Below are positions 33,008 through 62,204 of a stretch of 64,000 nucleotides of DNA, piece after piece. The stretch spans positions 1-64,000 of the forward strand of contig NZ_JANXMI010000134.1 of the NCBI RefSeq assembly GCF_025354735.1, read 5' to 3'. Made by a program: the position numbers and the translations under genes. Origin of the DNA: Rugamonas sp. (GTDB lineage Bacteria > Pseudomonadota > Gammaproteobacteria > Burkholderiales > Burkholderiaceae_D). How positions within the stretch are numbered: position 1 is the stretch's first letter; each line of letters begins with the position of its first letter. The notes below the pieces were generated by a model that was not told where the DNA came from, ran no database searches, and was given only the letters and a program-made list of their open reading frames with translations.

Positions 33008-33026
33008 GCGTGCGTTCCATTTTTAG

Positions 33027-34148: not shown

Positions 34149-34166
34149 GATATTCACCTCTTCCTT

Positions 34167-35342: not shown

Positions 35343-35368
35343 GATGACCACCTCTGACTTTTTCGGGT

Positions 35369-36277: not shown

Positions 36278-36291
36278 ATCTACGTCCTTTC

Positions 36292-36348: not shown

Positions 36349-36401
36349 GCGCCGATGAAAGAAATATGAACTGAACCACCCACCCACAGAAGGAGAACAC
36401 C

Positions 36402-38015: not shown

Positions 38016-39581
38016 TCAGGCCGTAGCAAGCTGCGCGGCGCAGTTCCATGGCAGGAAGTCGTCAACCCGGTTGACGGGATGCTCGGCGATGTTGGCCAGC
38101 ACATGGCGCAGCCAGGCTTCCGGATCGACGCCGTTGAGCTTGGCCGTACCGATCAGCGAGTAGATGGCGGCGGCGCGCTCGCCACCGCTGTCGGCGCCGG
38201 CGAACAGGTAGTTGCGGCGGCCGATGGCGACGCCGCGCAGCGCCCGCTCGGCGGCCGAATTGTCGATCTCGATGATGCCGTCATCGCAGTAGCGCAGCAG
38301 CGCCGGCCACAGGTTCAGGGCGTACTGGATCGCCGCCGCCGTGTCCGACTTGCGCGACAGTTTTTCGAGCGTGGCGCGCAGCCAGTTACCGAAGTCGTCG
38401 AGTAATGGGCGTGCCCGCAGCTGGCGCACCAACTGCCGTTCGTGCGGCGGTTTGCCGCGAATCTCGGCTTCGATCACATACAGTTCGGCGATCCGCCGCA
38501 GCGCTTCGGTGGTGATGGCCGACGGCCTGGCCGCATGCAGGTCGTAGAATTTACGCCGCGCGTGCGCCCAGCAGGCCGCTTCCTGGATCGTGCCGTCGAG
38601 GTAGAGCGCATTGAAGCCGGCGTAGGCATCGGCCTGCAGCAGGCCGCTGAAGTGGGCCAGGTGGGTTTGCGGATGGATGCCTTTGCGGTCCGGCGTGTAG
38701 GCAAACCAGACGGCCGCCGGCGTGGCGTCGCCGGACGCGCTGTCGTCGCGCACGTATGTCCACAACCGCGCCGTCTTGGTCTTGCCGTTACCCGGCGCCA
38801 GCACGGGAATCGGCGTATCGTCGGCATGCAGCTTGCGGCCGGCCAGCACGTGGCGCCGGATCACGTCGACCAGGGGCCGCAGCAGCGCGCTGGCGGCGCC
38901 GACCCAGTTCGCCAGCAGCGCGCGCTCCAGTTCGACGCCTTCGCGCGCGTAGATCACCGATTGGCGGTACAGCGGGATGTGGTCGGCGAACTTGGCCACC
39001 AGCACGTGCGCCAGCAGGCCGGGGCCGGCGATGCCGCGCGTGATCGGCCGGCTCGGCGCCGGCGCTTGCACGATGGCGTCGCAGCAGGCGCACGCCAGTT
39101 TCGGGCGCACATGGCGGATCACGCGGAAGCTGGCCGGCACCCATTCCAGCTGCTCGGCCACGTCCTCGCCCAGGTGGCGCAAGCCGCCGCCGCAGGCCGG
39201 GCAGGCATCGGCCTGCGGTGGATACACGCGTTCGTCGCGCGGCAGATGATCGGGCAATGGCTTGCGCGCCGCCTTGTTGCGCGGCGCCTTGTCCAGCGGC
39301 GCGCGCTCGCGCTCGGCCTCGCCCTCGGTGGCCTGCAGGTCCTCCAGTTGCAGTTCGAGCTGTTCGATCTGATGATCGAGTTTCTCGGACTTGCGACCGA
39401 ACTGCATGCGCCGCAACTTGGCGATCAGCAGCTTCAGGTGCTCGATCTCGACCTCGGTCGTGGTCAGCTGGGCGCGTAATCCCGCCACCACTTCGTCGCG
39501 CTCGCGCACCGTCTGCTCAGACGCTAGTAACAATGCCTTCAGGGCATCGATGTCGTCGGGCAGGTCGGCGTGGTTGAGCAT
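38016..39581 (-). CDS. tnpC: IS66 family transposase TnpC
   Basis: 521 residues, full length for the family. An N-terminal leucine-rich coiled coil (about 40-95: [22 protein letters not shown]), a zinc-finger region (CPACGG ... CACCD, about 130-175), and the catalytic core with [21 protein letters not shown] and the C-terminal [12 protein letters not shown]. These supply the DDE residues. It should catalyse IS66 movement. It follows tnpB by 30 bp. Confidence 0.95.
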
Positions 39582-39611
39582 GGGGGCGAGTTTACGCGAG
39601 CGGCCCGATGT

Positions 39612-39959
39612 TTACAAGGCCGACTGCGGCCGCCAGGTACGCTCCGGCCGGCGCCAGTCTATGCCTTCGAGCAGCATCGACAGCTGCGCCTGCGTCAGCG
39701 TCACGCTGCCATCGGCGGCTTGCGGCCAGACGAAGCGGCCGCGCTCAAGCCGCTTGGCCAGCAGGCACATGCCGTCGCCGCTCCACCACAGCACCTTGAT
39801 CATGTCGCCGCGCCGGCCACGGAACACGAACACGTGGCCGTTGTAGGGATCTTCGGCCAATGCCGTTTGTACCTTCACCGCCAAACCGTTCATGCCGGCG
39901 CGCATGTCGGTGATGCCGGCGGCCAGCCAGATCCGGGTTCCTGCCGGCAGTCCGATCAT
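39612..39959 (-). CDS. tnpB: IS66 family accessory protein TnpB
   Basis: 115 residues matching IS66 Orf2: TRIWLAAGITDMRAGMNGLA, HVFVFRGRRGDMIKVLWW, GDGMCLLAKRLERGRF. It is required with TnpA and TnpC for transposition of IS66 elements; its molecular role is not settled. The start overlaps the tnpA stop by 4 bp. Not related to the IS200/IS605 nuclease of the same name. Confidence 0.95.
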   Translation of the reverse strand: MIGLPAGTRIWLAAGITDMRAGMNGLAVKVQTALAEDPYNGHVFVFRGRRGDMIKVLWWSGDGMCLLAKRLERGRFVWPQAADGSVTLTQAQLSMLLEGIDWRRPERTWRPQSAL

Positions 39960-40336
39960 GGCAACAGGCGGGCCAGCAACAGCGTCAGCGTGGCCGCGTC
40001 GACCGAGCCTTCCAGCCGCAACTGGGCTTGGCCCACGCTCAGTACGATGACGCCAGATGGACCGCTGGCGAGAGCGGCCGGCACCGGCGGCGTATCGACT
40101 ACCGTGACGGCCAACAGCTGGCTCGGCGCATTGACCTCATTCCCGGCCTCGGTACCGAAACGCTTGCGCCAACTGAACAGCTGATTGGTATTGATCTTCA
40201 ATTCGCGGGCGATCAGCGACACCGATGCGCCTGGAACCAAGGTGCGCGCCACGGCAGCACGCTTGAATGCATCGCTATGCTGGCGATATGGGCCGCGTTT
40301 CGCCCTGGTGGTGACTGGTTGAATTATTGTGTCCAT
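39956..40336 (-). CDS. tnpA: IS66 family accessory protein TnpA (IS3-like HTH)
   Basis: About 126 residues from the ATG at 40336 (MDTIIQPVTTRAKRG); a TTG at 40378 would add 14 residues. Helix-turn-helix region DAFKRAAVARTLVPGASVSLIARELKINTNQLFSWRKRF is typical of IS66 Orf1/IS3 OrfA-type proteins, followed by a less conserved C-terminus. It precedes tnpB with ATGA overlap. Confidence 0.9.
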   Translation of the reverse strand: MDTIIQPVTTRAKRGPYRQHSDAFKRAAVARTLVPGASVSLIARELKINTNQLFSWRKRFGTEAGNEVNAPSQLLAVTVVDTPPVPAALASGPSGVIVLSVGQAQLRLEGSVDAATLTLLLARLLP

Positions 40337-40429
40337 AAATAAATTTGTGGACACAATCAATTTGCGTCCCAAATTCAATCATGGCGACGTGCAGCTCTCA
40401 GGGGAAGACGGCGCTGGATTGACGCTTAC

Positions 40430-40437
40430 CCACCATT
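40430..40437 (+). repeat. IS66 target-site duplication, right copy
   Basis: CCACCATT, directly following the IS66 terminal GACGCTTAC; partner of 37926-37933. Confidence 0.93.
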
Positions 40438-41257
40438 CAGATGCTGCTCGGACTCAAGCAGGTGTTTCGCCTTCCGCTGCGCGCGCTGCAGGGCTTCGCT
40501 AGTGGTCTGGCCAAGCTCGGCATGCCCGATCTGCAGGTTCCCAACTACAACCCTGTGTCGCCGGGCGCGCGATCTGCAAGTGACGTTACCGATCTTGCGT
40601 AGGGGCGAGGCGCTGCATCTGGTCATCGACAGCACGGGGCCTGAAGGTATTTGGCGAAGGCGAATGGAAGGTACGCAAGCATGGCACCTCCAAGCGGCGT
40701 ACCTGGCGTAAGGTACACTTGGCGATGGACGTGAACACGGGCCAGGTTTGCGCAGCACTGATGACGCACCAAGGTGTTGGCGACGCCGCAGTGCTGCCCG
40801 CGCTACTTGATCATATCCCGCCCGATGTGCCGATCGATATCGTTGGCGGCGACGGCGCGTATGACACCAAAGCATGCCACGATGCTATTGCCGCCCGTGG
40901 GGCACCGCAGTCAATCCCGCCGCGCGAGGGCGCTGCGCTGTGGCACCAGCGTCTGCCGGGCGCAACATGGCGCAACGAAGCCATTAGCGCCATCGCTACC
41001 AGCAGCCGACGAAAATGGAAAGTCGCTAGCGGCTATCATCGGCGCTCGCTCGCCGAAACTTTGATGTACCGGTTGAAGGTGCTGACCGGTCGGGAGCTGG
41101 CCGCGCGAACGATAAGCGCGCAGGCAACCGAGGTAGCTGTTCGTGTCGGTGTCCTCAACCGCATGACCGCACTGGCCCGCCTCAGTCCGTCCGTATTGCG
41201 TAAAGTCAGCATGGGTTTGGGCAGATTGTAGTCAGAATGAATTTATGCAACAGTGCC

Positions 41258-41624: not shown

Positions 41625-44318
41625 TCATGGTGTAGGTACAACTGCTGCTCCTGAGCTATCTAAATTTAAGCGATGAATCATCTCACGCTCATATGGGTAG
41701 ATAAAATCATTCTCAGGATGGCCATATGCGCGGAAACGAGATTGAGCGAAAATTGATATTCGATTTGCCGAATCTTGCGATAAAGCCCATGCTAGCGGCG
41801 GCTCGTGGAGCAGTCGTAGTTCCGTCGGTGCAACCCCATGCAAATGTTCTAGAGCTAAGACTTCTGGAGGACGTTCCATTTGAGCTTTATAGGTATCGTC
41901 CACTGCATTGAGAGTATCTTCCGTCATTGGCCAATAAATAAGATTGGACGGCTTAAGACGTCTGCGTAACTGCTCCATTGCCCAATCGGTACGCCCTTCA
42001 CGCGAATTCACCATGGCTTTTAATGGTGCTTGCAGTTGAGCGAGCAATCCAGGATCGGCATCATTGAGCACTTGCAATACGGGCCTTCCTTCAGCGGGAT
42101 TGCTCGTTATGACATAGGCCTTGATGCGATCAGCAGCTACGTGGTGATCGAGCAACCCGTCTATCACGTCCAGGAGAGTCACGATCCCCGAATTATCAGA
42201 ATATCCACCATCGACCAGTGACTGCTGCGTTACCATATAGCTTTTAGACCATGCGTTCCAGCCGTACACATCACGTGTACGCGGCGGACTGATATACGGG
42301 AAACGAGCACTATCTATCGCATCGGATAGCAATGACTGCCCGAATACTGCACAGTAGCCGTCGTTCGGGCAAAGTAATGGCTGACTCATTACCACCCGTC
42401 GACCATCCTGCACAGATGTGGAGTTGAATAGAACTAGGGGCTCCGTACCATCCACTTCCCCAGCGCGTTTAGCACGGGTGTTGCTGAATGTGTCGACTAT
42501 CGGCCCGATATGCGGCTCGTTTTCCAATAACTTTCGATATTCACGCTTCCAAGATTGCATCAAAATTCCCGCTCTACTACGGAAATCATCCCATCCCGCA
42601 TCTTCAGATCGAAGCCATGTCGGCAACAAACTCAGTGGAATATCTCTAAATAATAAACGAATCATCATCGGCGATAAATAGTCTGCCGAGTTCAAATTGA
42701 CGAGTGGCTGAAGCAACCTCGCATAGCGTTCTTGCGGTACTTTACGCTCCCAGCATTGTTCGCGCAACTCTTTAGTCCAAGGAGCATCTCTACGGCTAGC
42801 GATATAAGTAGCGGTACCTAGAGCGCCACCTGAGACTGCGCTGATCGCAAATACTCTATCACCGAAGACACCGCAGGTTGCTGCGTCTACCGCAGCGAGC
42901 ATAGTGGCCGTATGTGCAGCAGCTCGAGTTCCTCCGCCGGCTGACGCGATGACAATAATCGGCTCTTGATCATTGCTACCGCCATGCAGCGCTTGCCATG
43001 AGTCGTATTGCTTCTGCACTATCGCCCCTGGCAGGCAAATTCCGGCACGGTCATTGCACAAATCGCTATTTAGAGCCACTTCTGGCTGGCGCAGTAGTAA
43101 CGGCGGAACATTAGAGATCAGGGTAATCGCTATAAACCCAGCAATTGCCATAAATCGAAGGACCAGTGGTATTGCAAAAAAGAACAAGAATGTTATCAAT
43201 ACACCGGCAATCAACCATAAAATCACCGCAGCTGGGGCAAACAGCAATTTCGCGGCTTGTTCTGGTACAAGCGCCGCTACGATGCAAAGCAGCACTACCA
43301 GCATTGAAGTACTAAGCACGGTCACCAGGCTACGCCATGGCAACCGAGGCGCTAGTCGCGTAGCCAGCCTTTTAAACGTCAACGCACGGTTGATATTTCG
43401 ATACCAACGTTTTCCTTTTCGATGCAAACCCGCATTGCGACGAAATATTACAAACACCAAATATAAAGCTGGCAGCATCATTGTCACAGGGACAGTCCAA
43501 ACCCAAGTTTGAGCTATAGTTGCCGATCTGGCCACCAAACCTATCTCGACGGTTGCTAAGCCAGTTAAGAATTCCATTACAACAATTGCTAACCCGCGCA
43601 ACCAACTGCGGACAGCAAATTGCCAAGCAAATATCGCATAACAAACGAAGATTCCTAGCCAAGGAACCGTAAAGGCCCACCCATCCATTCCAATGGTTGG
43701 CTGGATACTGCACAACACAACACCAATGCTACTTGCAGCAAATCCGATCGCAAGCTTCTTGCGCCCAAAAATCGAGCTAAAACGGAAATGTAGGAAGACA
43801 GGGCTAAGCAAAAGCAAAGCAATCACAACCAATACCAATTCTATGCTGGCTATAGATGCGGTCGACCTAGACGATTCAAGTAAAATGGTTGAAATTGCAT
43901 AAAAAGGCACTGCTCCGGCCAATCGAGGTATCCAGATTTCGATTTGCTTGGTAAATCGATTACTATTGCGCTCGTGTCCATTCCGATAACTAACCAGAAT
44001 TCGTGCTAAATACCAAATCGTTAACGCAAACACAAGCGACAAAAGTTCAAAAACTATAAATTGCAGTGCCGTTGCACGTACTCCATATGTGAGCCCGCAG
44101 CGGGCTTCATCGGTGCCACAAATTAGCAACAGCGCCTCTAGAAACTCCCCAGTTTGCGGTAATGCAAGTAGTACACCAATAAGCGACGCGGCAGTAACTG
44201 GCAACAAACAGCGCCGCGTGACATCACTCAGTGCGAATAAAAATTCCCACCAAGTACGCAATACGCTCGCATGTGCAGCAACGCCTGATTGGCTCTGAAC
44301 CATTTTTTCCGATGTCAT
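41625..44318 (-). CDS. Membrane-anchored patatin-like phospholipase
   Basis: 897 residues from the ATG at 44318 with AAGGA upstream; the track TTG is 30 bases earlier. The N-terminal half has about ten hydrophobic segments (residues 30-420). The C-terminal half is a patatin-like domain: Gly-rich oxyanion loop ASAGGGTRAAA, nucleophile elbow AVSGGALGTA (G-X-S-G-G) and the Asp of VDGGYSDNSG, so the Ser-Asp dyad is complete. Lower GC than core genes. The architecture suggests lipid hydrolysis at the membrane; patatin effectors are frequent in anti-phage systems, but no sensor partner is adjacent, so that role is speculative. Confidence 0.85.
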   Translation of the reverse strand: MTSEKMVQSQSGVAAHASVLRTWWEFLFALSDVTRRCLLPVTAASLIGVLLALPQTGEFLEALLLICGTDEARCGLTYGVRATALQFIVFELLSLVFALTIWYLARILVSYRNGHERNSNRFTKQIEIWIPRLAGAVPFYAISTILLESSRSTASIASIELVLVVIALLLLSPVFLHFRFSSIFGRKKLAIGFAASSIGVVLCSIQPTIGMDGWAFTVPWLGIFVCYAIFAWQFAVRSWLRGLAIVVMEFLTGLATVEIGLVARSATIAQTWVWTVPVTMMLPALYLVFVIFRRNAGLHRKGKRWYRNINRALTFKRLATRLAPRLPWRSLVTVLSTSMLVVLLCIVAALVPEQAAKLLFAPAAVILWLIAGVLITFLFFFAIPLVLRFMAIAGFIAITLISNVPPLLLRQPEVALNSDLCNDRAGICLPGAIVQKQYDSWQALHGGSNDQEPIIVIASAGGGTRAAAHTATMLAAVDAATCGVFGDRVFAISAVSGGALGTATYIASRRDAPWTKELREQCWERKVPQERYARLLQPLVNLNSADYLSPMMIRLLFRDIPLSLLPTWLRSEDAGWDDFRSRAGILMQSWKREYRKLLENEPHIGPIVDTFSNTRAKRAGEVDGTEPLVLFNSTSVQDGRRVVMSQPLLCPNDGYCAVFGQSLLSDAIDSARFPYISPPRTRDVYGWNAWSKSYMVTQQSLVDGGYSDNSGIVTLLDVIDGLLDHHVAADRIKAYVITSNPAEGRPVLQVLNDADPGLLAQLQAPLKAMVNSREGRTDWAMEQLRRRLKPSNLIYWPMTEDTLNAVDDTYKAQMERPPEVLALEHLHGVAPTELRLLHEPPLAWALSQDSANRISIFAQSRFRAYGHPENDFIYPYEREMIHRLNLDSSGAAVVPTP

Positions 44319-44838
44319 AGCATCCTTGTTCTCGCAATTAATTGCCAAAAATCAAGTTTAACTATACACAATACATTTCCATGGTGCAGTATTATTTGCT
44401 ATGTGATCACGTTTGTTGGAGCCGACACCACATTGATCCGCAGCGCCTGTATCAGTTGCCGTAGGAACTGACCCGGCCGCCCTCACTGGGCCTGCGTTTG
44501 CTTGGACCTGCCAAGGTCAACGAATCTTGGTAGCCTAGTTAATTTGGCGTCGGCGCGAACACCAGCACAATGTCGCTAAATAACGCCGATCAGTGATACC
44601 CTAAATTCAGTCTGCCTTCAGCTCCGGCTCAACGCCAGTAGGTCCCGAATCAGCAACGCAGCTATTATTTATTGGTCGAACTGATGCCATCGTGTTTTAT
44701 TGAACATGCTGATAATCTAAACTTAGCCATCGACCAACAAGTTGGTCTTCTACAAGGAAGAAGCAAGCCCCATAGCTCGCCTATCTTACAATCCAGTGGG
44801 CAGCATGCCCCTTCGACGTCGGCCCGAACCGGCATCGA
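44319..44838. repeat. 520-bp gap with GACCAAC/GTTGGTC motifs beside the Tn7-like genes
   Basis: No gene is supported. TTGGTCGA occurs at 44672-44679 and a perfect palindrome GACCAACAAGTTGGTC at 44732-44747, followed by TTCTACA. These share the GTTGGTC core with the three repeats at 30.66-30.79 kb. The position, just downstream of the last tniQ gene, fits transposase-binding sites of a transposon end or a former end; orientation of the copies is mixed, so the boundary is unresolved. Confidence 0.45.
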
Positions 44839-45921
44839 TTAGATGTTTACAACCCGCCGCTTAAGACAGATATCCCGCAGATGACTTTCGACCTCACTCA
44901 GTTGGGCTCCAACGCTGTTACACGCTGCCTTAAGGCTTTCCCCACCCATGAAAACCTGTATGGCCATGTCCCTAGGAAACCTCGCGATTGACTCATTGCT
45001 CACGCGCTTGTCGACCTCGTTCAGAACCTCCAGCGCATCATCCGAGGAAGGGTATAGAACGGCCAAAATCGCCGCGCAAGCCAGTCCTGGGTAAGAGACA
45101 TGTTTATCGACGCAGGCGCCGTCGATTTTGCGGACGTAGCTTTGTGGGCTTTTGGTTAAAATTTCTGGAAAATATTTGCTTAGCCAGCTATCTGGAAATT
45201 GCTCGGCGATCCAGTCACTGGCAACATGGCGTTTTCCGATTTCACCCACCCGAAGGCCGAGGATGCGACATCGTTCGCCAATGACCTGCGACCACGTTTG
45301 CAGGTGAAGCGGGCGGTCTCTTTGTAGCCAGTTTAAAAGGATGCGCTCCAAACGCAGCAATGCAGGATTACTAATCTCCTCCTCATCATTCAAGACAATG
45401 CCCTCCGCTCGCTTTGATATAAAGCTAGCAGGTTGCACGGCTGTTTTGACAGACTGCGACAACGGAATTCGGTGCTCAATACACCAGTGGACGCCATCGA
45501 TCTGATGCCACCGCCTCAAGTGGCTAAAACCACGAAATCCGAGGTCGAGCTTCGAACACTCTATACACCATCGGAACTTCGTCAAAGCGGTGCCAAAGCC
45601 GCGTCGAGCAATCGTCTGTTTTTGCTTGGACTCGTGTGGGCGGCCGTGGTAGTTTGATATCGGATACATCACGGGCAGCATTGAGTGTCTTGACGTGAAT
45701 ATATTTTGTTCTAGCCCGCAGGCGTTAGCTAATAACCATATAGGTGGCTGATGTCTCTTGTCGGTTGCACTATTCCTTAACAGCTTAATTGCCAGCTCAA
45801 CGGAAGTGATTCCGTTTACCTGGGCAAATCTTTCAAGGATCCCTGCTGCTAGTTCGTCTTTTAACGGTATCGGTATGTTGTGAATCAAATACTGCTCCGG
45901 TGGTAGATTTGCAAGACCCAA
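44839..45921 (-). CDS. tniQ: Second TniQ family protein (short type)
   Basis: About 360 residues. N-terminal TniQ-like region (IPIPLKDELAAGILERFAQVNG), then a zinc finger resembling the family pattern (RWCIECSKLDLGFRGF ... VHWCIEHRIPL). TniQ/TnsD proteins select the target site for Tn7-like transposition. The frame has no ATG near its beginning: the track start is a TTG without a ribosome-binding site, and the frame is continuous with the upstream tniQ gene apart from one TAG codon. It may therefore be made by readthrough or be a detached part of a longer protein. Confidence 0.75.
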   Translation of the reverse strand: MGLANLPPEQYLIHNIPIPLKDELAAGILERFAQVNGITSVELAIKLLRNSATDKRHQPPIWLLANACGLEQNIFTSRHSMLPVMYPISNYHGRPHESKQKQTIARRGFGTALTKFRWCIECSKLDLGFRGFSHLRRWHQIDGVHWCIEHRIPLSQSVKTAVQPASFISKRAEGIVLNDEEEISNPALLRLERILLNWLQRDRPLHLQTWSQVIGERCRILGLRVGEIGKRHVASDWIAEQFPDSWLSKYFPEILTKSPQSYVRKIDGACVDKHVSYPGLACAAILAVLYPSSDDALEVLNEVDKRVSNESIARFPRDMAIQVFMGGESLKAACNSVGAQLSEVESHLRDICLKRRVVNI

Positions 45922-45972
45922 TCTTGCATTGCTGCTTGATTCCGGTCTGCTAATAATTTTTACAGATCCTGT

Positions 45973-47721
45973 CTAGCAGAACATATTTTTCTGATGCGGC
46001 GGTGTGGGCTCGTAGCTCAAAACTGATGACAATGTTTTTATCGTGGAAGGCCACTGCCCAGGATTTGCGATAGCTTTCCTGAGACCAGGCAGCGACCTGC
46101 TGATTTCGTCTAAGGACCGCGCCCCTGATGACGATAGCCAGGCCTCAGCGGCCACCTGCAACGCCGCTGCCATGCGCAGGTCGGCGTTCGCGATTCGCCT
46201 AGGGGCATGGTTTGATCCAACTTCCTTCGAGACACTCTCACACGAATGGCGAAGCCACTCTCTGTCATTGCGATAAAGCCAGGCATAGGCCGCTGGCTCC
46301 AGCTTACGCAAAGCCGCGATACCAATGTAGCTACGCAGATGCGCAATGTAACTCCACGATTGACGTGCCGCACTTCTCCGCTGCTCATGAAGGACCTCGT
46401 GCCATTTGTCCTGGAGGCCTGGTACGGTTCGAATAATCCGCGTCACTGTGCCGATGGAGGATTCGCAGACATCTGCAACCTCGACTTTACTAGCGCCGGC
46501 TTGAAGCATCGATACTGCAATCTCCCATTTCGGGACGAGAAGTTTCTTCGGTCTTCGCGGCGAAGGAATGTGCAATTTAGCTGCCCAAGCAGCCACTGTC
46601 GAATACGATACTCCAGCATACCTAGCAGCGGCCGTCATACTGATCTCTCCTGTTGCAACGGCGGTCAAAAGCTCAGCGTGTTTGCTCTGCAGCCCAAATT
46701 GAACTGGCAATTTGGGGAAGCTTTCGTCATCGCACTTTGCCCATTTTTGTGCGTTATCGTATTCGCCCTGAAATTCAGCAAGATTTTCAAACCAAAGGGA
46801 TATCCACACTAGATTTCGGAGCGGATGCGATGCAGCACGGCCAGACAGAATTCTCTGAAGCTGGACAGCTAGTAGATCGCTGCTTGCTTGATGATTTAGC
46901 CCTGGAAGTTTGATTGACCAAACGGCCAAATCATCAAGGTATGAACGGATTTTTGGCCATTGGATGCGGCCACTTCCATGCGTCATATGCAATGCTGCCA
47001 AACGGCCCCTGATCGTATATGCAACTTGCGCCGCGTCGGCGAATCGGCCGGCTTCATAGCACAGCAAGTCTGTACTAAGGCGGCTCAATTTTGACAACCA
47101 TTTGGCCTCCCTGGAAGTAGGCAGCAGCTGGTCTGAAATGTTTAAAGACGCACGTTCATCAATGACCGGCAAGGCCCATACGGATCGAAATAGTTGCTTT
47201 GCGCGCGGTGGATATACCGTCAAGGACATCTGATGTTGCACGCAAATCCAAACACCAGGTAATTGGTGGCTACGTCTCCAGTAAGGCCACCCATGACTGG
47301 ATAAATCACCGGCGACACAAGCTGGACATGCCTTTAAAGGATGAGCCGCTCCGAGGCCGCTTGTGAGTAAACCCAGTCGATACTTCAGGTGAGAAATTCC
47401 ATCCCCAAAGAGTGCGGTCTCGGCGACGTCACCGTGGGCCTTAGATTTGAACGGCAGATAAAAAGGTAGTAGGGTCATGCGTTGCATGATTACCTGAGCT
47501 GGCCCCAGGATACCGAAGCCGCGCTCCGCCAATGCCGTCAGGCGACAAGGAAAGTCATGCGCAAGGCCAGCACGTGCATCGCCAAAAAGCTGAACGCTAG
47601 TGTTTTTATCCAGGCCGTTGGCCGTCAGTCGATGATATCGGCTACACCAGCTAAATAATGTTTCGTCTGGTAGCGGCGCTAGACAAACAGGCAGATCTCC
47701 CTGCTCAACTTGCATTCTCAT
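45973..47721 (-). CDS. tniQ: TnsD/TniQ family target-selection protein
   Basis: 582 residues. N-terminal TniQ domain (PLPDETLFSWCSRYHRLTANG) and the characteristic zinc finger CPACVAGDLSSHGWPYWRRSHQLPGVWICVQH (about 115-150). A long C-terminal part includes an HTH-like segment (ISMTAAARYAGVSYSTVAAWAAKL, about 370-395), as expected for a DNA-reading TnsD-type protein. It should recognise the attachment site and recruit TnsC. The start overlaps the tnsC end by 17 bp. It ends in TAG, with the frame continuing into the second TniQ. GC content is moderate. Confidence 0.88.
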   Translation of the reverse strand: MRMQVEQGDLPVCLAPLPDETLFSWCSRYHRLTANGLDKNTSVQLFGDARAGLAHDFPCRLTALAERGFGILGPAQVIMQRMTLLPFYLPFKSKAHGDVAETALFGDGISHLKYRLGLLTSGLGAAHPLKACPACVAGDLSSHGWPYWRRSHQLPGVWICVQHQMSLTVYPPRAKQLFRSVWALPVIDERASLNISDQLLPTSREAKWLSKLSRLSTDLLCYEAGRFADAAQVAYTIRGRLAALHMTHGSGRIQWPKIRSYLDDLAVWSIKLPGLNHQASSDLLAVQLQRILSGRAASHPLRNLVWISLWFENLAEFQGEYDNAQKWAKCDDESFPKLPVQFGLQSKHAELLTAVATGEISMTAAARYAGVSYSTVAAWAAKLHIPSPRRPKKLLVPKWEIAVSMLQAGASKVEVADVCESSIGTVTRIIRTVPGLQDKWHEVLHEQRRSAARQSWSYIAHLRSYIGIAALRKLEPAAYAWLYRNDREWLRHSCESVSKEVGSNHAPRRIANADLRMAAALQVAAEAWLSSSGARSLDEISRSLPGLRKAIANPGQWPSTIKTLSSVLSYEPTPPHQKNMFC

Positions 47722-49147
47722 CGTTCATCTCCGGGGTCTCAACTGCTAACTTCTTCTTGCTACCAGAGCGCTGCTCCTGAGTGACTTTCCGGAATAGCGA
47801 TGCCCCGTCCAAAAGAGACTGCGCTGATACTGCAGTTCGCTTCGGCATTCGTAACACCTTTACTTCGCTGCCATTAGCTGATACCGATTCTGAGGAGCGT
47901 CGCAGCGTGCGGAGGGTGGCTTGCGCATCTATGCTTAACGTGCCCTCGATCAACGCGGCGGAGACATCAGAGGGAAATGCTTGAGCTTGAGTAGGCGATT
48001 TTGATTTAGCTCCAGCGGCGGCCGGCACCACATGGCGTTCAGTAAATGCACAAACTAAGTCGGGCCGCCGCTCCGTGTTGTGCGTAATAGCAAGTGAGGC
48101 TAGATCCTCGATGTCCTTGCGATATGCACTGTATGCACGACTACCAAATGCCAAACGCACCTCAGTCATTGTGACGACGGAGCGTCCGTGGTGTGCAGTC
48201 TCCCTATAGGCTTGTAGCAGCAGCTCGCGCAACGCGCGAAATAGGCCAGCCGTAAGCCTGTGCAATTCTTCAATCTCCGCGTCGGTTTCGATTTTGAAGC
48301 AATCAGGAGCGACCCTCAAATATTCCTTGATGCTATCGGACCATAATTCATCTTTCGCTGCTGGGGGTTCCACAACATAAGGCGCCGCCAGCAATCGATT
48401 TTTCTCCTCTTGCGGCCGCTGCAAGAGCTTGTTCACCAACGAATAATTAGCCACAAAAATTAACGGAACACCAAGACTAGCCAACATCATAATGAGCTGC
48501 GTTGTCTTCACGCTGGCAGTGCTGCTCTGCGTAAAAAACTGCATTTCATCGACAATTAGGGCGGACGTAGCTGTGGTGGAAAACCACAGCCTCACGTGCT
48601 CCATCAATGTCTTGTTATCCCGCTTCATGCTAACAAGAGCAACCGGGTTAGCGAGCTCTTCTAAGACCCCGCGTATAGACTGCTGGCCACCGATTCCGAT
48701 GCGTCGAACTGGACAAAGCGTCAACCGCTGGCAGTCACTTACGAACTGCCCCTTGTTGTCGAGGGCACAAATTCTTTCAAACGCTTTTACCAAAGAAGAT
48801 TTGCTAACGCCTGCCAGCCCTGTCAGGCAGCGAATGCTGTGAACCTCGCAGGGTGCCAATACTCCCGCGCTTCGCTGCCGATTGTAGTCCTTCAAAGTCG
48901 GAGAGGTCGATGCCGAAAAATGTGCGGCGTGGACTACGAACGATCGCAATATTTCGATATGCTGTACTCCTGGGACGAAGATCTCTTTCCAAGCTTGTTC
49001 AAGCCTGCGGCAGGCCTCTTCAAGATGCAGTGCTTGTAGCCCCTCTACCGGCTTCACAGCGAGGTAAGCTGCCTGCTTAATCACCTCGTCGCTATCAAGT
49101 TTACTGAACCATGAGAGCCATGGCGGTTGGCATTGTAAAGTGTTCAT
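47705..49147 (-). CDS. tnsC: TnsC/TniB-like AAA+ ATPase of a Tn7-like element
   Basis: 480 residues. AAA+ ATPase with Walker A GLAGVSKSS (near 130; the usual Gly before Lys is replaced by Ser) and Walker B ALIVDEMQFF (near 215), then a sensor region (GVPLIFVANYS). In Tn7-like systems TnsC links the target selector to the TnsAB transposase and gives target immunity. The C-terminal ~130 residues are a low-conservation extension. Start overlaps the tnsB stop as ATGA. Confidence 0.88.
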   Translation of the reverse strand: MNTLQCQPPWLSWFSKLDSDEVIKQAAYLAVKPVEGLQALHLEEACRRLEQAWKEIFVPGVQHIEILRSFVVHAAHFSASTSPTLKDYNRQRSAGVLAPCEVHSIRCLTGLAGVSKSSLVKAFERICALDNKGQFVSDCQRLTLCPVRRIGIGGQQSIRGVLEELANPVALVSMKRDNKTLMEHVRLWFSTTATSALIVDEMQFFTQSSTASVKTTQLIMMLASLGVPLIFVANYSLVNKLLQRPQEEKNRLLAAPYVVEPPAAKDELWSDSIKEYLRVAPDCFKIETDAEIEELHRLTAGLFRALRELLLQAYRETAHHGRSVVTMTEVRLAFGSRAYSAYRKDIEDLASLAITHNTERRPDLVCAFTERHVVPAAAGAKSKSPTQAQAFPSDVSAALIEGTLSIDAQATLRTLRRSSESVSANGSEVKVLRMPKRTAVSAQSLLDGASLFRKVTQEQRSGSKKKLAVETPEMNDENAS

Positions 49148-51270
49148 CGGCGACCACCTGCTCGAAGGTATTCGGCCACCTGTTGCGCTTCTTCGCGTGA
49201 CGCGCCCTTTGATCTTCGAGAGCGGCCAGACTTCACTTCCGACTGTTCAAATGGCTTGCCTGTGTAGTCTTGGAAGGCCGTCTCGTACTGTGCTTTTACC
49301 GCCAAGCGATGCGATTTCAGTTCCAGCTTCGCGTCGCGTCTGATTTGTTGCAGCTGCTCGATCTCCAAGACCGAAATATAGAGCTGTTCCTGCCCATCTC
49401 GTATAGCCAACATAGCGTCTACTTGGACTAAATGCCCTCCTATGTCTACCCATAAGTGGCGTACGCAAGTATCCAAAATATATCCGGTTAAGACGTAGCG
49501 GCCCAAGTCATGCGCTTTCTGCAGGATTCCAGATTGCTTCAGCTCCTCGGATTCAAATCGTGAATCCTTGAAATACACGGCATCATCGCGCACGGTCACT
49601 TCTACCGGCAAAAGACAAGCACGCACCGCCTCATCGAAAACGGTAGGTATAGAAACGTTTCGGCCTTTGCTATCAAGGTACTTCCAAAGGCCGACCGGAG
49701 TAGGAAATACATTCTCACTCAACGCGAGGTTGTTGAGCCGGTCGGTAACGTCAATGCATTGGTTGTCGGCGATCGTACGCATGATTTCCTGCACAGCGAT
49801 CTGCGGAATCGTCAGCCTAGTCTCCAAATAATGCGGCTTGCCTTTTTGGTTAACCTGCTTGGGATGGGTAGTCTCGATGGAGGCCTTGGACTGTCCAGAA
49901 TAACTTGGGGCCGCCTCTTTGATCATCGCATTTAGCCCTTCAATTGCGAGCTCGGCCTTTGCTGTACTACCTGGTCCCCGATCATTAACGATGTGCGGCG
50001 AGAGGCCAATGCTTGGCCAATCATCGTGGCAGATATCAATTCCAAACAGGCCGCAAAATTTCATCTTATCGATCGCGGCGCAAAATAAAGCCATGCGATA
50101 CGCAGCTGCGGTTTCGGATCCAAACGAAAAGCCAATACCTACAATCATTCCCGAGGTGATACAGCGGATGCGCACTACCCACAGAGGCGGTAGGTGACTG
50201 CCTTGGAGGTAGCCCTTTGCCACTTGTATGCAGCAATAAGCGTCCTGCTCTGTTCGCTCCATTAGATTACCTACACTTTCAGCAAAGCGTCCCTGCGAAT
50301 GCCACAAGGTGTCTCGGCCGCCTGCGTATCCATATTTATAGGTCTGTCTCACCTCAAGGGGGAACTCCAAATTCACGCGATAAGCAAATTGTCCGAAGGA
50401 GGGAAATGGCCTTCCCGCCGGATGAACAAACACCTTTCTGCCAGATGATTTATTTTGAACAACACAGCCGAAAACGGAGATTAATGTACGGTGATAGATA
50501 CGGTTGAAATGCTGACCTGGGCCAGCGAACGTTCTGTACCCCTCCAACATCCTTTTGATCATCTCAGGATCATTGGCGTTGTAGCCATGATTCGCGCCAT
50601 ATAGCCGGGAAGGGCGTCCAAATTTCTTCTGACGTCCGCTTCGATCCCAACGTCCAATGCGATTTACAGCGTAATGCAGTGCCCATCGGCTGAGGCCAAA
50701 GCAAACGTATGCATAGAATGCAATTCTCAACCGCATTTCGTTCTGCCTCGGCTTGCATGCCCTTGCATGTGCGTTAATGACCGCATCAGGGGCATCAGCT
50801 GTCAGTACTTGGTCGAGGTTTTGCACCAGTGGCCATAGATGCAGCATCGTCTGATCGATACGCTGGTCATGGCTTCTTTTTCTCGTTTTGCCATGCAGTG
50901 AATAAGCCCTAAGTTCATCAATCGATAAACTTGCTAACCAAGGCGGAAGCTCTTCCTGGTGCTCACACGGCGCTATTAGCCCTGCGTCAACCCCTTGCTC
51001 AAAACTGTAGCGCGATAAATAGTGTAGGACGGGCTTGAACGCGAACGACGGCCGCGATGAAGACTTCGCTGACTTATGTGAGATGGGCGGAGCAGTACCC
51101 ACGTCAGCGAGGCCTGCGTCCATGAGGTTTTTCTCCGATAATTCGGAGGGACCGAACTCGACCAACAGTACGCGCTGCTTCGCGGCGTCGCTCCGTAGTA
51201 GATGATAGACCCGTCCTTTTTTAAGCGTTTCGAAGCCTTCAAACGCGCAGAGCTGAGTACCTGTTTGCAT
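49144..51270 (-). CDS. tnsB: TnsB-like DDE transposase (Mu transposase C-terminal domain)
   Basis: 708 residues. The integrase-type catalytic core has Asp in RTEQDAYCCIQ (near 343), Asp in HIVNDRGP (near 430) and Glu in SKASIETTHP (near 466), giving a DDE triad in the order typical of TnsB. A Mu-C-like beta-barrel and a basic tail (KSGRSRRSKGASREEAQQV) follow. It should bind the transposon ends and join 3' ends to the target. It begins 9 bp after tnsA ends and overlaps tnsC. Confidence 0.9.
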   Translation of the reverse strand: MQTGTQLCAFEGFETLKKGRVYHLLRSDAAKQRVLLVEFGPSELSEKNLMDAGLADVGTAPPISHKSAKSSSRPSFAFKPVLHYLSRYSFEQGVDAGLIAPCEHQEELPPWLASLSIDELRAYSLHGKTRKRSHDQRIDQTMLHLWPLVQNLDQVLTADAPDAVINAHARACKPRQNEMRLRIAFYAYVCFGLSRWALHYAVNRIGRWDRSGRQKKFGRPSRLYGANHGYNANDPEMIKRMLEGYRTFAGPGQHFNRIYHRTLISVFGCVVQNKSSGRKVFVHPAGRPFPSFGQFAYRVNLEFPLEVRQTYKYGYAGGRDTLWHSQGRFAESVGNLMERTEQDAYCCIQVAKGYLQGSHLPPLWVVRIRCITSGMIVGIGFSFGSETAAAYRMALFCAAIDKMKFCGLFGIDICHDDWPSIGLSPHIVNDRGPGSTAKAELAIEGLNAMIKEAAPSYSGQSKASIETTHPKQVNQKGKPHYLETRLTIPQIAVQEIMRTIADNQCIDVTDRLNNLALSENVFPTPVGLWKYLDSKGRNVSIPTVFDEAVRACLLPVEVTVRDDAVYFKDSRFESEELKQSGILQKAHDLGRYVLTGYILDTCVRHLWVDIGGHLVQVDAMLAIRDGQEQLYISVLEIEQLQQIRRDAKLELKSHRLAVKAQYETAFQDYTGKPFEQSEVKSGRSRRSKGASREEAQQVAEYLRAGGRR

Positions 51271-51279
51271 AGGAACCCC

Positions 51280-52269
51280 TCAGGCAGTCTGGCGAGAAAA
51301 CCAACTCGCGAAAACAGCAATAGGATCACGACGTTCAGCTTTGAGCGGGTGATCAATAAAGATCGCCTCGTCCATCAGCTCAGCACGAACATCGCGCTGC
51401 CAAAGGGCGCGTCCAAATGCCGACCGCAATGCATCAAGGGACACGTCATATCGATGCACCATTGAAAGCAAAATATCCAATGGTCGCTGCGTCGTTCGCG
51501 TACTGGCTTGCAGTCGTTCGCAAAGCTCAGCGTAGATCCCGGCGTCTAGTTCTGGGGCTCGATGCATCATCAACAATAAGCTCCTGATATTTTGCAAGAA
51601 CATATCAGGCAGATCGCGGTCTACGATTCGTATTGTGGGAATGCCGGCATCGAGATAGTAGCGCTCTTCAATCGCATGGCGCATTTCAACGGCAGTGCGC
51701 TCTTTCGCTGGCGCGCGTGCAGGCTTATCGGCGAGAATGAGACGGCTGCTAAATTCTTCCTTACTGCCTTTGATGGTCCAGTTCACGCAATACGGACCGG
51801 CCTCGTCGGCAAGGAACAGGAGGAAATCACCGATGAAGGGAAAAGGGACGGGGACTCGGCCCGGCCCGTCTGGGTGGTCGATGTATATCCAGTGGTGGTG
51901 GTTGATCACATCCAGTCGTTCGCAGACATCGATTGTTCCGCGCAGTGGGTGAAGGATCATCCCGGTCGCGCGTTCATGACTTGAAAGTGGATGCGGCCTC
52001 GCCTCGGTTGCGAGCATTCGCTGTTCATGGATTTCAAATAGCGATGGATTGTATAGCGCGACCAGGAGAGCTTTTTGCTCTACCGATGACAGCGCATGGC
52101 AATAGCGCCCGAGCTTGTCAGACCAGACCTGTGCAGGCCGGCTCCTTGCCGGCGCCTCTTCGCGCGTTGCTCGTATCGCTGGGTCGTAGTCGGGGCTGCA
52201 CTTCGGCGGATCTTGACGGCGTAGTACTTCTTTCAGGCGTGACTGGCCGATGTGTTTAGGCTGAGCCAT
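51280..52269 (-). CDS. tnsA: TnsA-like endonuclease of a Tn7-like element
   Basis: 329 residues from the ATG at 52269 (GGAAAGGAAC upstream); the track start lies 33 bases earlier. The core matches TnsA nucleases: SSVEQKALLVALYNPSLFEIHEQ (Glu), PFIGDFLLFLADEAG (Asp) and NWTIKGSKEEF (Lys). A segment ERTAVEMRHAIEERYYLDAGIPTIRIVDRDLP follows, as in the TnsA C-terminal part. TnsA cuts the 5' ends so that elements move by cut-and-paste. First gene of the tnsA-tnsB-tnsC-tniQ-tniQ operon. Confidence 0.87.
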   Translation of the reverse strand: MAQPKHIGQSRLKEVLRRQDPPKCSPDYDPAIRATREEAPARSRPAQVWSDKLGRYCHALSSVEQKALLVALYNPSLFEIHEQRMLATEARPHPLSSHERATGMILHPLRGTIDVCERLDVINHHHWIYIDHPDGPGRVPVPFPFIGDFLLFLADEAGPYCVNWTIKGSKEEFSSRLILADKPARAPAKERTAVEMRHAIEERYYLDAGIPTIRIVDRDLPDMFLQNIRSLLLMMHRAPELDAGIYAELCERLQASTRTTQRPLDILLSMVHRYDVSLDALRSAFGRALWQRDVRAELMDEAIFIDHPLKAERRDPIAVFASWFSRQTA

Positions 52270-52500: not shown

Positions 52501-52788
52501 CTAGGTCGCGCTTCTCCGAGGCCCAACTGCTTGAGCTCTTTGATGGCTCAACCAAGTCGCAACATCTATGGCCAGAGCGAAGCTACCGCGACGATGCTGG
52601 ATTTTGAAAATGGGAACTGGGACTGTTCCTCTGGACAGCGCACGTTGAAATGAAGCAGACGACTGATAACCCAGCTCTTTAGTCAAGGCCGTTGACCCGA
52701 GTACGGAGCCGTATTGGGACTGCAATCTCGCAGAAAGCTCTTCAGCAATTTGCCGCGTATCAGTCAAATCAGCGTCGATGGTATCCAT
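52501..52788 (-). CDS. Small predicted HTH DNA-binding protein
   Basis: 95 residues from the ATG at 52788 with GGAGCAAC upstream; the track start is 153 bases further. The middle part reads GSTALTKELGYQSSASFQRALSRGTVPVPIFKI, the look of an excisionase/MerR-like winged helix or plasmid-type DNA-binding protein, followed by FALAIDVATWLSHQRA. It lies upstream of tnsA in the same direction and may regulate the transposition genes or be part of the element end. The family is not firmly identified. Confidence 0.65.
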   Translation of the reverse strand: MDTIDADLTDTRQIAEELSARLQSQYGSVLGSTALTKELGYQSSASFQRALSRGTVPVPIFKIQHRRGSFALAIDVATWLSHQRAQAVGPRRSAT

Positions 52789-52888
52789 TGTGTTGCTCCG
52801 TCCGGTGTAGTACTGATGGTACGATTTTGCGAAGCTCGGGACTAGAGGTGAAAGTTGAACGTGAAAAAATTTGCGCGAGTTAACGTAA

Positions 52889-53728
52889 GTGCTTGATACC
52901 ACTACAAAATCATTAGAGGAACTGGGTTTCGCATCGAACATGCGAAAGTCGTTCAGCCCTAGAAAGCGTCATGTTGTAGACATGATCGCTACGATTTGCT
53001 GGTTTCACGCGCTGAGAATTCATCTGGATGCGAGTACCGTCGTAGCAGTGCAGCGTGCGATAGAGCCGGTGGAAATCGGAGATCCGGATGGGGTTTACCG
53101 GCGGTGGAGGGAATACCATAAAGGGAGACACTCGCCGCGCCGCCGTGTAATCGATATGTGCAACGAGGTGTGCCCGCAAGCTGTCGCGGTATATCGATCG
53201 CCGTTGTGGTGTGCCCTACGACTTGATCGGCCAATCGATCAGGTTGCTAAATCCCTCCTCGGAACTACATGTCGCCTTGGCGATGAGTTGATTAAACGAA
53301 TGTGGAATTTTCCTGAAAATTCCAGGCCGCATGTGGATCCACGCTGGATGCGTAAACGAGGTATGGCGATGCTTCGGCAAGGGAATCTAGAAGGGTTAGC
53401 CGTGCTCGTCGTTTGCATGCGACTAGCAGCTTCACAGGGGCTGAGTCGATTGGCAGTGACCTTCTATCGATACGCTGCTCACTGTATGAAGACCTTGGGC
53501 ATTTGGTTTTATGCACTGGGCGTCGCCCAAGGGTTAAGCGAATACTTAGAAGATGATCTGCTTCCAATATGTGGCGATGCGGCGTTTCTGGGAAACTTTA
53601 GCTCTGTGCACTATCTCTCGCAAATTCAATCGATGGGAATCGAGCTAAAACGAGTAGTGGCCGCTAACAATAACAGGCTCACTGCCATTGAAGAGGTCGA
53701 GGTAGTGATAGGTTGGTTGGATTTGTAA
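52889..53728 (+). CDS. Hypothetical protein, unrecognised
   Basis: 279 residues from a GTG; the ATG at 52940 is an alternative. Mostly helical with several Arg/Trp-rich segments (GDPDGVYRRWREYHKGRHSPRRRVIDMC, LEGLAVLVVCMRLAASQGLSRLAV). No catalytic motif or membrane segment is evident and I do not recognise the family. Divergent from the HTH gene and convergent with the RHH gene, it sits between the Tn7-like module and the candidate defence operon, so it may be transposon cargo. Confidence 0.6.
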   Translation: MLDTTTKSLEELGFASNMRKSFSPRKRHVVDMIATICWFHALRIHLDASTVVAVQRAIEPVEIGDPDGVYRRWREYHKGRHSPRRRVIDMCNEVCPQAVAVYRSPLWCALRLDRPIDQVAKSLLGTTCRLGDELIKRMWNFPENSRPHVDPRWMRKRGMAMLRQGNLEGLAVLVVCMRLAASQGLSRLAVTFYRYAAHCMKTLGIWFYALGVAQGLSEYLEDDLLPICGDAAFLGNFSSVHYLSQIQSMGIELKRVVAANNNRLTAIEEVEVVIGWLDL

Positions 53729-54331: not shown

Positions 54332-54529
54332 ATGAAAGTACTGTTTGATACTAAAAAAGTACAAAAAACGGGCCGTATTGCGCTCAGTGAACAACTCCTA
54401 CGCAATGCCGGGTTGCAAGAAGGGGACTCCGTAGACATCTATTTCGACGCATCTTCAAAGCGAATTATTCTGGAGCGGGCTGATGCCTCGACTCAGCCAA
54501 GCCACGAAGGAAAAGGAAAAAAAATATGA
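54332..54529 (+). CDS. AbrB/MazE-like swapped-hairpin DNA-binding protein
   Basis: 65 residues: KVQKTGRIALSEQLLRNAGLQEGDSVDIYFDASSKRIILER is the SpoVT/AbrB/MazE fold, with G-R-I at the swapped hairpin and the G-D-x-V turn. First gene of the operon, its stop overlapping the next start as ATGA. An operon autoregulator is the likeliest role; an antitoxin role is possible but no MazF-like partner is present. Confidence 0.8.
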   Translation: MKVLFDTKKVQKTGRIALSEQLLRNAGLQEGDSVDIYFDASSKRIILERADASTQPSHEGKGKKI

Positions 54530-55431
54530 TCACTGCCAACGAGCGATTCTCTGGCCATGAGTCATTTATTTGCCGATACGGATGGCTGCCGAAGATCTTT
54601 CACGCTATATCGCAAGACCCATTGCTCCTCAAACAAGAAGAGCAGGCAATGCACACGCTTGGAATTGGTCGAAATATGGTCAAGTCATTACAATTTTGGG
54701 CCGAGGCAACCGGAGTGATCACGAGCGCCGGCCCCAAAGGACACATTCCTGGGCCTATCGGAATATGCGTGTTTGGAAAGGACGGTTGGGACCCATACCT
54801 CGAAACCCTTGAGACACTTTGGCTAATGCATTGGCAATTGAGCACAAATGCAGGCCTAGCAGCCTGGGCCGAAGTGTTCGGTGAGGGTAAGCAGGTTCGG
54901 TTCGATAGGCCGCGCTTAGTTGCGGCGTTGGCCCAGCGTGGCGAGAAATCATCGCGTCCGTTGGCAGCTAGCACCCTCGAACAACACGCTTCCATCTTCA
55001 TCCAAACTTATTTTCAGGCAGAGCGCGGTACAGATGACACTTCATGGTGCCCGCTTCAGGATTTGGGATTAATCACAGCAGCAAAGAGCGAAGATAACCG
55101 CATTCTTTATAGCACTGAGGGAAACGCGCCTGTTGGATTGTCGCTCCGTGTATTTGGAATGGCTCTCGTTGATTTCATACTACGGCAGTCCAACGGAACT
55201 TTTTCGGTTGACTTTGGCAGTGTCTTAAAGGGTGCCAACAGCCCCGGTATCGTGTTTCGCATGGACGAGCATCAACTCAGACATTTTATTGACGCTGCAA
55301 TCGCTGGGGCTTTTGAAGGGGCGATGCGGTTCGTCGATACCGCGGACACGCAAAGCGTTATCTTGCTCCCAAAAAAACTAAATTCACAGTATCGCTTGCG
55401 GCTGCAAGAAGAGGCACTAGAACATGCGTAA
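54526..55431 (+). CDS. DUF4007 family protein
   Basis: 301 residues opening with ERFSGHESFICRYGWLPKIFHAI, the hallmark of DUF4007, and continuing with LGIGRNMVKSLQFWAEATGVI, which looks like a winged-helix. The C-terminal part is unassigned. DUF4007 genes are commonly found beside large ATPases and PAPS-reductase-family proteins in defence-type loci; molecular function is unknown, and a DNA-binding or specificity role is inferred from the helix-turn-helix-like region. It overlaps the upstream gene by 4 bp and the downstream ATPase by 8 bp. Confidence 0.85.
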   Translation: MITANERFSGHESFICRYGWLPKIFHAISQDPLLLKQEEQAMHTLGIGRNMVKSLQFWAEATGVITSAGPKGHIPGPIGICVFGKDGWDPYLETLETLWLMHWQLSTNAGLAAWAEVFGEGKQVRFDRPRLVAALAQRGEKSSRPLAASTLEQHASIFIQTYFQAERGTDDTSWCPLQDLGLITAAKSEDNRILYSTEGNAPVGLSLRVFGMALVDFILRQSNGTFSVDFGSVLKGANSPGIVFRMDEHQLRHFIDAAIAGAFEGAMRFVDTADTQSVILLPKKLNSQYRLRLQEEALEHA

Positions 55432-58400
55432 CAACATAATCGACTATCTGGCCTTCGCAGGAAGACACACACGCTCTATCTCCCTGGTCCGCGATCTCTA
55501 CGACAACTGCACCATCGACGGCTATCTACTTACCCCTAACAGCGTCGGGGCAATACGTCAGATTGGTGAGGGAATTGCTTTAGGTCGTGCTCAACGAGCG
55601 TGGAAGATTGTTGGTCCTTACGGCAGTGGTAAGTCCGCCTTAGCCATAGTGCTGGCGCAACTCTTCGCTGGACCTAAAGCGCATCCCGCCGCGTTAAAAA
55701 AGTTGTGCGATATTTCAACGCAAACGGCCGAGCTATTTGAGAAATCTGATCGACTCTCGATACCAGTGGTGGGCGCCCGAATTTCATTTGGACTTGCACT
55801 TGCGACTTCGATATTTGAGGCTGCAGAACAACTTAGTAAATTCAAGCTCTTAGCTTCATTCAAGAAGCAGTTTGATTTCGAAAATCGAACCTACAAGGGA
55901 CGACCATTTGCCGCAACAGCTGGTGAGATGGCAGCTACATTTTCGGAGATCGTTGTCATGGCAGGGCAGCAAGGCCTAGTCCTTTTTATTGACGAGGTCG
56001 GAAAATTTGTCGAATACGCTGCGCTCAATCCAGAAGAAGGCGATCTGATTGCGCTTCAACAAGTTGCAGAAGCGTCATGCACAGCAAACGACGATAAATT
56101 AGTCGTCGTTGCAATGCTCCATCAACACTTCGCTAGCTACGCCTCGGGAATTGGACGAGCCCTTAACGACGAATGGCACAAAGTTGCTGCGCGTTTTGAG
56201 GAAGTGCCGTTCGATGAACCGGTTGAAAGGTACGCCCACTTTGCGAGACATGCCCTTGGGACAACGCCAGATGCCTTAAGAGTCAAGAGTTTGGTCGCAG
56301 AGAGCCGCAAAGTTTACGCGCACGCGTTGAAGAGGGGGATCTTGAGGGCCCCATCCGTTAGTGATAAGAAGCTTTTCGAAAATGCAGAGCTTATCTATCC
56401 GCTGCATCCTCTAACACTCTGTTCACTTGCTACGGTTTCAAAACGCTATGGTCAAAGTGAGCGTTCCTTCCATGCCTTCTTAAACGGAAGTGAGCCTAAA
56501 GGATTGCGTGAATTTGCCGAGCACAACACACTTGGGGCTTGGTACCGGGTAGCGGATCTATACAACTTTCTGTCAGAAGGATACGGTCTTCGCTTCCGCG
56601 ACTTGGGGGCTGAGCGTAGATGGGCATTTGCTCAAGCAGTAATTGAGCGCTTGAGCCTTGATGCGCCTTCGACTTTAGTTCTAAAGACTATCGCGGTTTT
56701 GGAGCTATCCCAATCGGGTGTATTCGTCCCAATCACCGCAGAAACGATTTCGTTTGCATTGGGTGAAGATGACCCAAAGGCTGTCGAATTGACGCTAGCG
56801 AGTCTTTTGGAGCAAGGCATTTTAGTCAAGCAGCGCAGCTCGGCAGCGTATGCTATGGCAGTCTCCGAAGCGGTCAATATCGAGGCGTTGTATGAACGGG
56901 CTGCGCGCGCAAGTGAGGGAGACTTAGCAATAAGCGGGATTAGTAAAACACTATCCCAGCGCCACGTGGTTGCGACGCGTCACTATGCCGAAACAGGAAC
57001 TATTCGGACAATGGGTATCCTCGTTGGGACAGCAGATGCATGGCCGCAGCAACCGGCGGGCAAATCTGATGAAGCAAAACCTGACGCGTGGCTCAAGATA
57101 GTCCTGGTCGTAAAGGGGTCAACCTCCGAAACGCTAGCGTTGGCCCGCTTAAACAAAGAGCTTGATCCCCTCAGCGCGATCACCTGCTTACCCGTATCTA
57201 GCGAAGGTCGCGCGGCGTTAGCTGAGCTTGCTATCTGGCAAACCGTTTCGCGCGAGGTCAACAGTAAACGACTCGACCCGTGGACATCTCGTTACGTCGA
57301 CGGTCGGCTGCAGAACGCTAGCGAAACAGTTGAACGTCTAGTGACTTCGGCATTGATGCCTCATTCCGAGCAGCCCGGTCCTTCCTATTGGAATTCTGGT
57401 CAATTGATTCGCGGAAGCGAGCTCATGAATGCGAACCAAGTGGCGTCTTGGCTGTTCAAAAAGGTGTACAGCCGAGCACCGCGTATTGTCAACGAGCTCA
57501 TCAATAAGGAAAAACCAGCGTCGGCGATTGTTCTCGCACGACAACGATTGTTCGATGTGATATTAAGTGGTGAACCCACGCGCAAAATTTGCGGTGACAA
57601 CGAATTTCCGCCGGAGCGCTTGATACAAACCACATTGCTTCGTGATACTGGAATATGGCAAGAAGCCGACGGGCGCTGGGAATTACGAAATCCAAGCGAA
57701 GACGCTCTTGTAGACATTACACCCGTCTGGAACGAAATATGTGTTCAGCTGAGCGCTGAGTCGCCGCGCACTTTTTCCGGTGTCCTGGAAGCGTTAGCTG
57801 CACCGCCATTTGGAGTTAGAGCAGGTCCCGCAGGGATCTGGGTAGTGCTTTACCTTTGGGTAAATCGCGCTCGATGTGCGGTATTCGAGCGAGGAACCCT
57901 TGTTCTTGAGCTTACTGCGGAACACTTGCAGCGGATGTACAAAAGCCCTAACAACTTTACATTACGCGCACTCGAAAACGCGGAAGGAAGCAAGAAGTTA
58001 ATTGATGAATACCGAGTTGCACTTGCGAGCATCGGCTGTTCTGTCGAAAGTAACACAACGTTCCTAGAAGTTGCCCGGACATTGTATCGATGGTTTACAA
58101 GGCTCCCCGATTATACGAAGCAGACTCTGCAACTTGGAAAGGACGCCGCGCTGATCAGATCGATGCTAAACAAGGCCACGGATCCCATTCAACTATTAAC
58201 GCAGACTCTCAGAGAAAGTCATCTAGAGACCAAGTCCAATTTGGAGTTCTCCGAATGGCTAGCGAATGCCCTAACCGATTTGGGAATGGCACATCGTCGT
58301 CTTCAAGACAACGTTGCGAGCGAACTGAGCAAGGGCTTCGGTATTAGCGGTTCCTTAAGTCGGGTAAGAAACCAACTCCAAGCGGAGTGTTCAAAAGAAG

Positions 58401-62143: not shown

Positions 62144-62204
62144 TCGGGAAATTGCAGATGCCTCTGCAACGTGTGGATCTGAAGTTCAGAGAAAAGAGGA
62201 AAAC

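Follow-up and report, generated by a model that had tools for sequence, protein, structure and literature searches.

In Tn7 (TnsABCD plus TnsE), separate TnsA and TnsB proteins, TnsC and a glmS-homing TnsD go together with asymmetric multi-site ends, a right end pointing towards glmS and a two-pathway lifestyle. Type I-B1 CRISPR-associated transposons (CASTs; Tn7743, AvCAST) carry a glmS TnsD and a second, small TniQ that acts with Cascade. Faure et al. (2023), in the part of their survey that concerns such pairs, counted 998 dual TniQ-TnsD loci, CAST and non-CAST together, and proposed that target selection is direct for the large TniQ/TnsD and partner-mediated for the small one (PMC10293859). 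Benler et al. (2021) described plasmid-borne Tn7-like elements without a recognisable tnsE and allowed for plasmid selectors yet to be recognised (PMC8649781).

Exploring the first 64,000 nucleotides of a Rugamonas sp. contig (NZ_JANXMI010000134.1; hereafter the window), we found a Tn7-like element that resembles Tn7 in all the features above, its second pathway being a predicted one, whereas it has no TnsE match, carries a second, short TniQ instead and encodes a TnsB only distantly related to that of Tn7. It resembles type I-B1 CASTs in pairing a glmS TnsD with a small TniQ, but it is without cas genes or array and its short TniQ is nearer to Tn7 TnsD than to CAST TniQ. A large TnsD paired with a small TniQ is also the make-up of the dual TniQ-TnsD transposons of the survey, whose account of these loci, as far as it treats the small TniQ, gives it a target only in CASTs (PMC10293859), whereas members of the clade studied here lie, without CRISPR, both beside glmS and at plasmid sites other than glmS. 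The dual-TniQ kind is already catalogued; added here are a bounded member, a clade-wide pattern and plasmid empty sites. The explanation we favour, and consider reasonably probable, is a two-pathway Tn7-like cut-and-paste transposon whose TnsD would lead to glmS and whose short TniQ would lead to plasmids, and which was probably disabled later, behind a second element.

The tns operon and its two TniQ proteins

The tns genes lie on the minus strand between 44839 and 52269, running leftward in the order tnsA-tnsB-tnsC-tnsD(TniQ)-tniQ. Neighbouring genes overlap or are separated by short gaps, compatible with one operon, and the catalytic motifs are intact. The first-pass annotation had described TnsA, a DDE TnsB, an AAA+ TnsC and two TniQ proteins in one operon without cas genes or a repeat array, and all five genes were recovered at that place. 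In the TnsA endonuclease (51280-52269), E75, D159 and K178 (numbering from a GTG at 52302) are invariant among nine aligned TnsA proteins, and a start at 52269 agrees better with the relatives than the longer open reading frame from the GTG. The profile of the TnsB DDE transposase (49144-51270, 708 aa) matches Tn7 TnsB (7pik, 2.3e-17) with more than 500 residues aligned, fixing the triad as D343-D430-E466, which is invariant in aligned relatives. The AAA+ regulator TnsC (47705-49147, 480 aa; AAA_22, 5e-6) has a variant P-loop, GLAGVSKS, where the alignment gives the family consensus GLAGVGKS. TnsD (45973-47721, 582 aa; PF15978, 8.9e-19; TniQ, 4e-16) combines a TniQ domain with a helix-rich C-terminal region, the C-terminal half being helical in the structural model, and is by homology the predicted glmS selector. 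The short TniQ (44839-45921, 360 aa; PF06527, 9.7e-12) has a zinc finger and is without the long C-terminal DNA-binding extension. Pfam and PADLOC call both proteins TniQ, while the TnsD family is matched by the long one only. TnsA, a DDE TnsB and an AAA+ TnsC with their catalytic motifs, together with two TniQ-domain selectors, make the locus Tn7-like, and one large TnsD plus one small TniQ make it a dual TniQ-TnsD locus.

Upstream of tnsA, a small HTH-type protein (52501-52791, minus strand) is a possible tns regulator. Divergent from its gene is that of a 279-aa protein without a Pfam match (52889-53728, plus strand). The two genes (window 52501-53728) occupy the same position in loci L090 and L091 and are not present in L087 or L089.

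A scan for PF18623 (TnsE), a single C-terminal profile set against very divergent TnsE families, gave no match in the whole host genome, three relatives and two plasmids; in every genome the control panel stayed below the cut-off. Between 30600 and 64000 a search for CRISPR-like arrays gave nothing, the scanned proteins of the window element had no cas family match, and neither a cas gene nor an array is annotated in the plasmid stretches examined. By its genes, the element would be neither a canonical Tn7, defined by TnsE, nor a CAST, defined by a cas effector and an array. The same searches bear on the idea that the short TniQ is a relic of a CAST whose CRISPR module was lost. A small TniQ beside a large TnsD is indeed the layout of CAST I-B and I-D (PMC10293859), but the model of the short TniQ (mean pLDDT 80) matches Tn7 TnsD 1-318 best and CAST TniQ weakly, in agreement with the sequence profile (sequence 2e-19 and fold 8.6e-7 for Tn7 TnsD 1-318; 0.039 and 0.037 or worse for CAST TniQ). 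A CAST origin was rejected on these two comparisons, and we regard it as highly improbable.

Genomes were scanned with the window TnsB alone, which gave no match, and with a TnsB alignment query, which gave 53 loci, mostly from betaproteobacteria and Pseudomonas. Long TnsD and short TniQ occur together in 35 of the 57 loci with TnsB, many of the remaining loci being cut by contig or flank ends. In the trees called for by the first-pass annotation, long and short proteins form separate clades (local supports of 0.99 for the long proteins, and 0.96 and 0.82 for two short groups). In pairwise distance, both correlate with TnsB (0.91 for the long and 0.88 for the short proteins; permutation tests), which points to co-inheritance and not to function, because shared ancestry alone would give the same correlations.

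Element ends and the glmS site

A repeat search confined to the window did not reveal the ends, which were found through relatives at glmS. Two genomes of the same order as the host (G156 and G151) have homologous elements immediately 3' of glmS with AATAAAGTTCGTCGG direct repeats at 20-bp spacing at their ends, and this motif was then located at both ends in the window contig. The element spans 33.6 kb, from 30649 to position 64242 of the contig, which is 242 bases outside the window (30649-64000 within it), with AGAGCAAATAAAGTTGGTCGG inverted at both ends; the same right end stands beside glmS in G417. The left end (30649-30790, plus strand) holds three TnsB-type sites, near 30659, 30720 and 30772, and the right end two, 20 bp apart. 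These inverted multi-site ends are predicted TnsB sites; the ends of several relatives were read by eye with a single motif. The span 44839-52269 given at first thus holds the core module of a larger element. A discrete insertion, on which the first reading had been staked, is what the inverted ends delimit: they bracket the module together with the DUF4007 operon and the patatin-like gene, and both neighbours, earlier proposed as cargo, are therefore cargo. The target site duplication matches at 4/5 positions in the window copy (AAGTT / AAGTC) and is exact (ACAGA) in one plasmid relative. If the target duplication is taken as 5 bp, the right end begins 5'-T(G/A) and the left end one base later, a one-base asymmetry that is the same in three elements (G151, element 2, NZ_CP087161.1).

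On this contig glmS occupies 114323-116152, which is 50 kb rightward of the window element, and a second Tn7-like element (64243-114298, 50 kb) lies between them. Its ends differ (TGC.GTA.G.GAACAAAAGCGCTTCGCG) and it carries copper-resistance genes and two TnsD/TniQ genes of its own; no TnsB was identified within it. CTTGT flanks it on both sides, and it landed 24 nt past glmS, within the last 7 nt of the window element. Removing the second element in silico, together with one CTTGT, restored TGACAAGAGCAAATAAAG / TGACAAGAGCAAATAAAGTTGGTCGG 17 nt beyond the glmS stop, indicating that the window element inserted first and the second element later. In relatives the right end is 17 (G151), 16 (G156) and 18 nt (G417, of the same genus) from the glmS stop, a fixed short distance that identifies the site as attTn7. 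The 16-18 nt set this subfamily apart from Tn7; in the Pseudomonas relatives the distance is 23-25 nt. The terminal TG is absent from the present right end of the window element, removed by the later insertion, so this copy is probably trapped and immobile.

The junction was reconstructed by removal of the second element because no relative had an empty site matching both flanks of the window element; the comparison of related genomes proposed at the outset yielded the ends and the glmS site and stopped short of such an empty site. Homologues of the window genes at 8-17 kb lie about 7 kb past glmS in G431, which belongs to the same genus and lacks a TnsB-site end at its glmS, and the chromosome appears to continue at 8-17 kb of the window. 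The left flank at 29.4-30.6 kb was rejected as an empty-site anchor, as it lies away from glmS in relatives. Just outside the left end (29401-30497) is a RES-Xre toxin-antitoxin pair, read by eye, with 80-94% identical copies elsewhere in the genus. Other genus members carry different Tn7-like ends in this glmS-adjacent place, which makes attTn7 here a busy site. G151 offers another tandem attTn7 arrangement: on contig C9, from about 627595 onwards, the first element is immediately followed by a further right end of matching type.

Cargo of the element

The DUF4007 operon (54526-59678, plus strand) encodes SspB (DUF4007), SspC and SspD, clear members of SspABCD-SspE / SspFGH defence by PADLOC (3e-113, 1529 bits and 3e-119, respectively), and is, on these matches, an SspBCD DNA phosphorothioation (phage) defence operon; the block is predicted to be functional. 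SspA, SspE and SspFGH were not seen beside SspBCD, the PADLOC scan for SspE and SspFGH having omitted the last protein. Unlike in the described systems, their place is taken by a two-HATPase protein (59711-62143) and a protein of up to 666 aa (62058-64058), both on the plus strand (59711-64000 within the window), which may form an undescribed effector pair for phosphorothioate defence. SspBCD is followed by this pair both in the window (54526-64058) and, in the same gene order, in G151 (C9, 617673-627244), the block lying on opposite sides of the tns genes in the two. Relatives of the pair also occur without visible SspBCD in locus L096.

The patatin-like gene (41625-44348, minus strand) encodes a membrane protein whose patatin-like motifs were read by eye, with no Pfam match at 0.001. 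IS66-type genes and an IS5-type remnant, read by eye from translations, lie inside the element at 38016-41231, and the left arm (31459-37292) holds MarR regulators, alpha/beta hydrolases and an aldo/keto reductase, found with Pfam except for the reductase, which was read by eye.

Plasmid-borne relatives and target selection

A plasmid search with the short TniQ of the window itself gave no match. The clade is present on two Pseudomonas plasmids, NZ_CP087161.1, typed as conjugative, and CP027478.1. The former carries two elements with the full gene set, one at 82270-117177 with the duplication ACAGA and an IS5-type insertion in tnsB, and one at 120917-138495 with CCCAG/ACCAG and an IS3-type gene between the two TniQ genes. 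Their joined flanks match empty plasmids at 607/607 (NC_022739.1, NZ_CP083747.1) and 608/608 positions (NZ_CP083747.1), the two insertion sites being about 3.7 kb apart in NZ_CP083747.1. In CP027478.1, the right end of an element that looks decayed lies inside a stretch annotated as a helicase gene in many megaplasmids. These three were the only plasmid insertions found, and they have no obvious common motif. That they are pseudo-glmS sites was rejected, since against the glmS end they score below most random plasmid stretches. Being unlike the glmS end, they are not explained by TnsD homing.

Relatives lie on plasmids yet yielded no known plasmid-targeting gene, which makes the short TniQ a good candidate targeting factor. 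Tentatively, the protein could itself select plasmid targets, unaided or helped by a small partner (the HTH/279-aa pair, for instance), and so replace TnsE and CRISPR, a proposal to which we give somewhat less than an even chance. Were the short TniQ instead to assist or regulate the TnsD pathway, capping the TnsC filament or serving as a heteromer partner, the plasmid insertions would come from low-specificity transposition; its place as last gene of the same operon in the window would fit, as would its retaining chiefly the TnsC-contacting core of Tn7 TnsD. However, most relatives have it on another strand or apart from tnsD, it was kept over long evolution, the three plasmid sites do not look like the end of glmS, and in CAST I-B and I-D the two members of such a pair act as separate selectors (PMC10293859, PMC11406308). 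We consider a helper role unlikely. Less likely still is that the short TniQ picks out a different place on the chromosome, or a particular DNA structure (replication forks, for example), and not plasmids as such. In favour, the plasmid sites have no shared motif, and in locus L127, on a 235-kb contig, the right end lies at a terminator-like site other than glmS; but such cases are few and L127 may lie on an unrecognised island or plasmid.

The preferred reading remains that of two pathways, and the alternative target selection suggested by the first-pass annotation is supported by conservation of both TniQ proteins, by their separate clades and by relatives at glmS and at non-glmS plasmid sites, plasmid DNA being the putative target of the short TniQ. 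In this two-pathway model, TnsA and TnsB would cut and join the ends and TnsC would act as the switch. TnsD, its role assigned by homology, would bind the glmS end and place the element 16-18 nt beyond the stop codon, its right end facing glmS, while the short TniQ, alone or with a partner, would bring TnsC to another target class, most likely transferable-plasmid DNA. The element, which carries the Ssp defence and other cargo, was the first to enter at glmS; the unrelated copper-resistance Tn7-like element inserted afterwards, 24 nt past glmS, displacing it by 50 kb and deleting the terminal TG.

The locus shows, at base level, a Tn7-like element that inserted into the end of another one at a shared homing site and probably immobilised it. 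The clade joins two survey observations, the roughly 1000 dual-TniQ loci and the plasmid-borne Tn7-like elements that have neither a recognisable tnsE nor a known plasmid selector, and is a clean system for asking what a small TniQ recognises. If the short TniQ does select plasmids, it would give Tn7-like elements a third route to mobile DNA.
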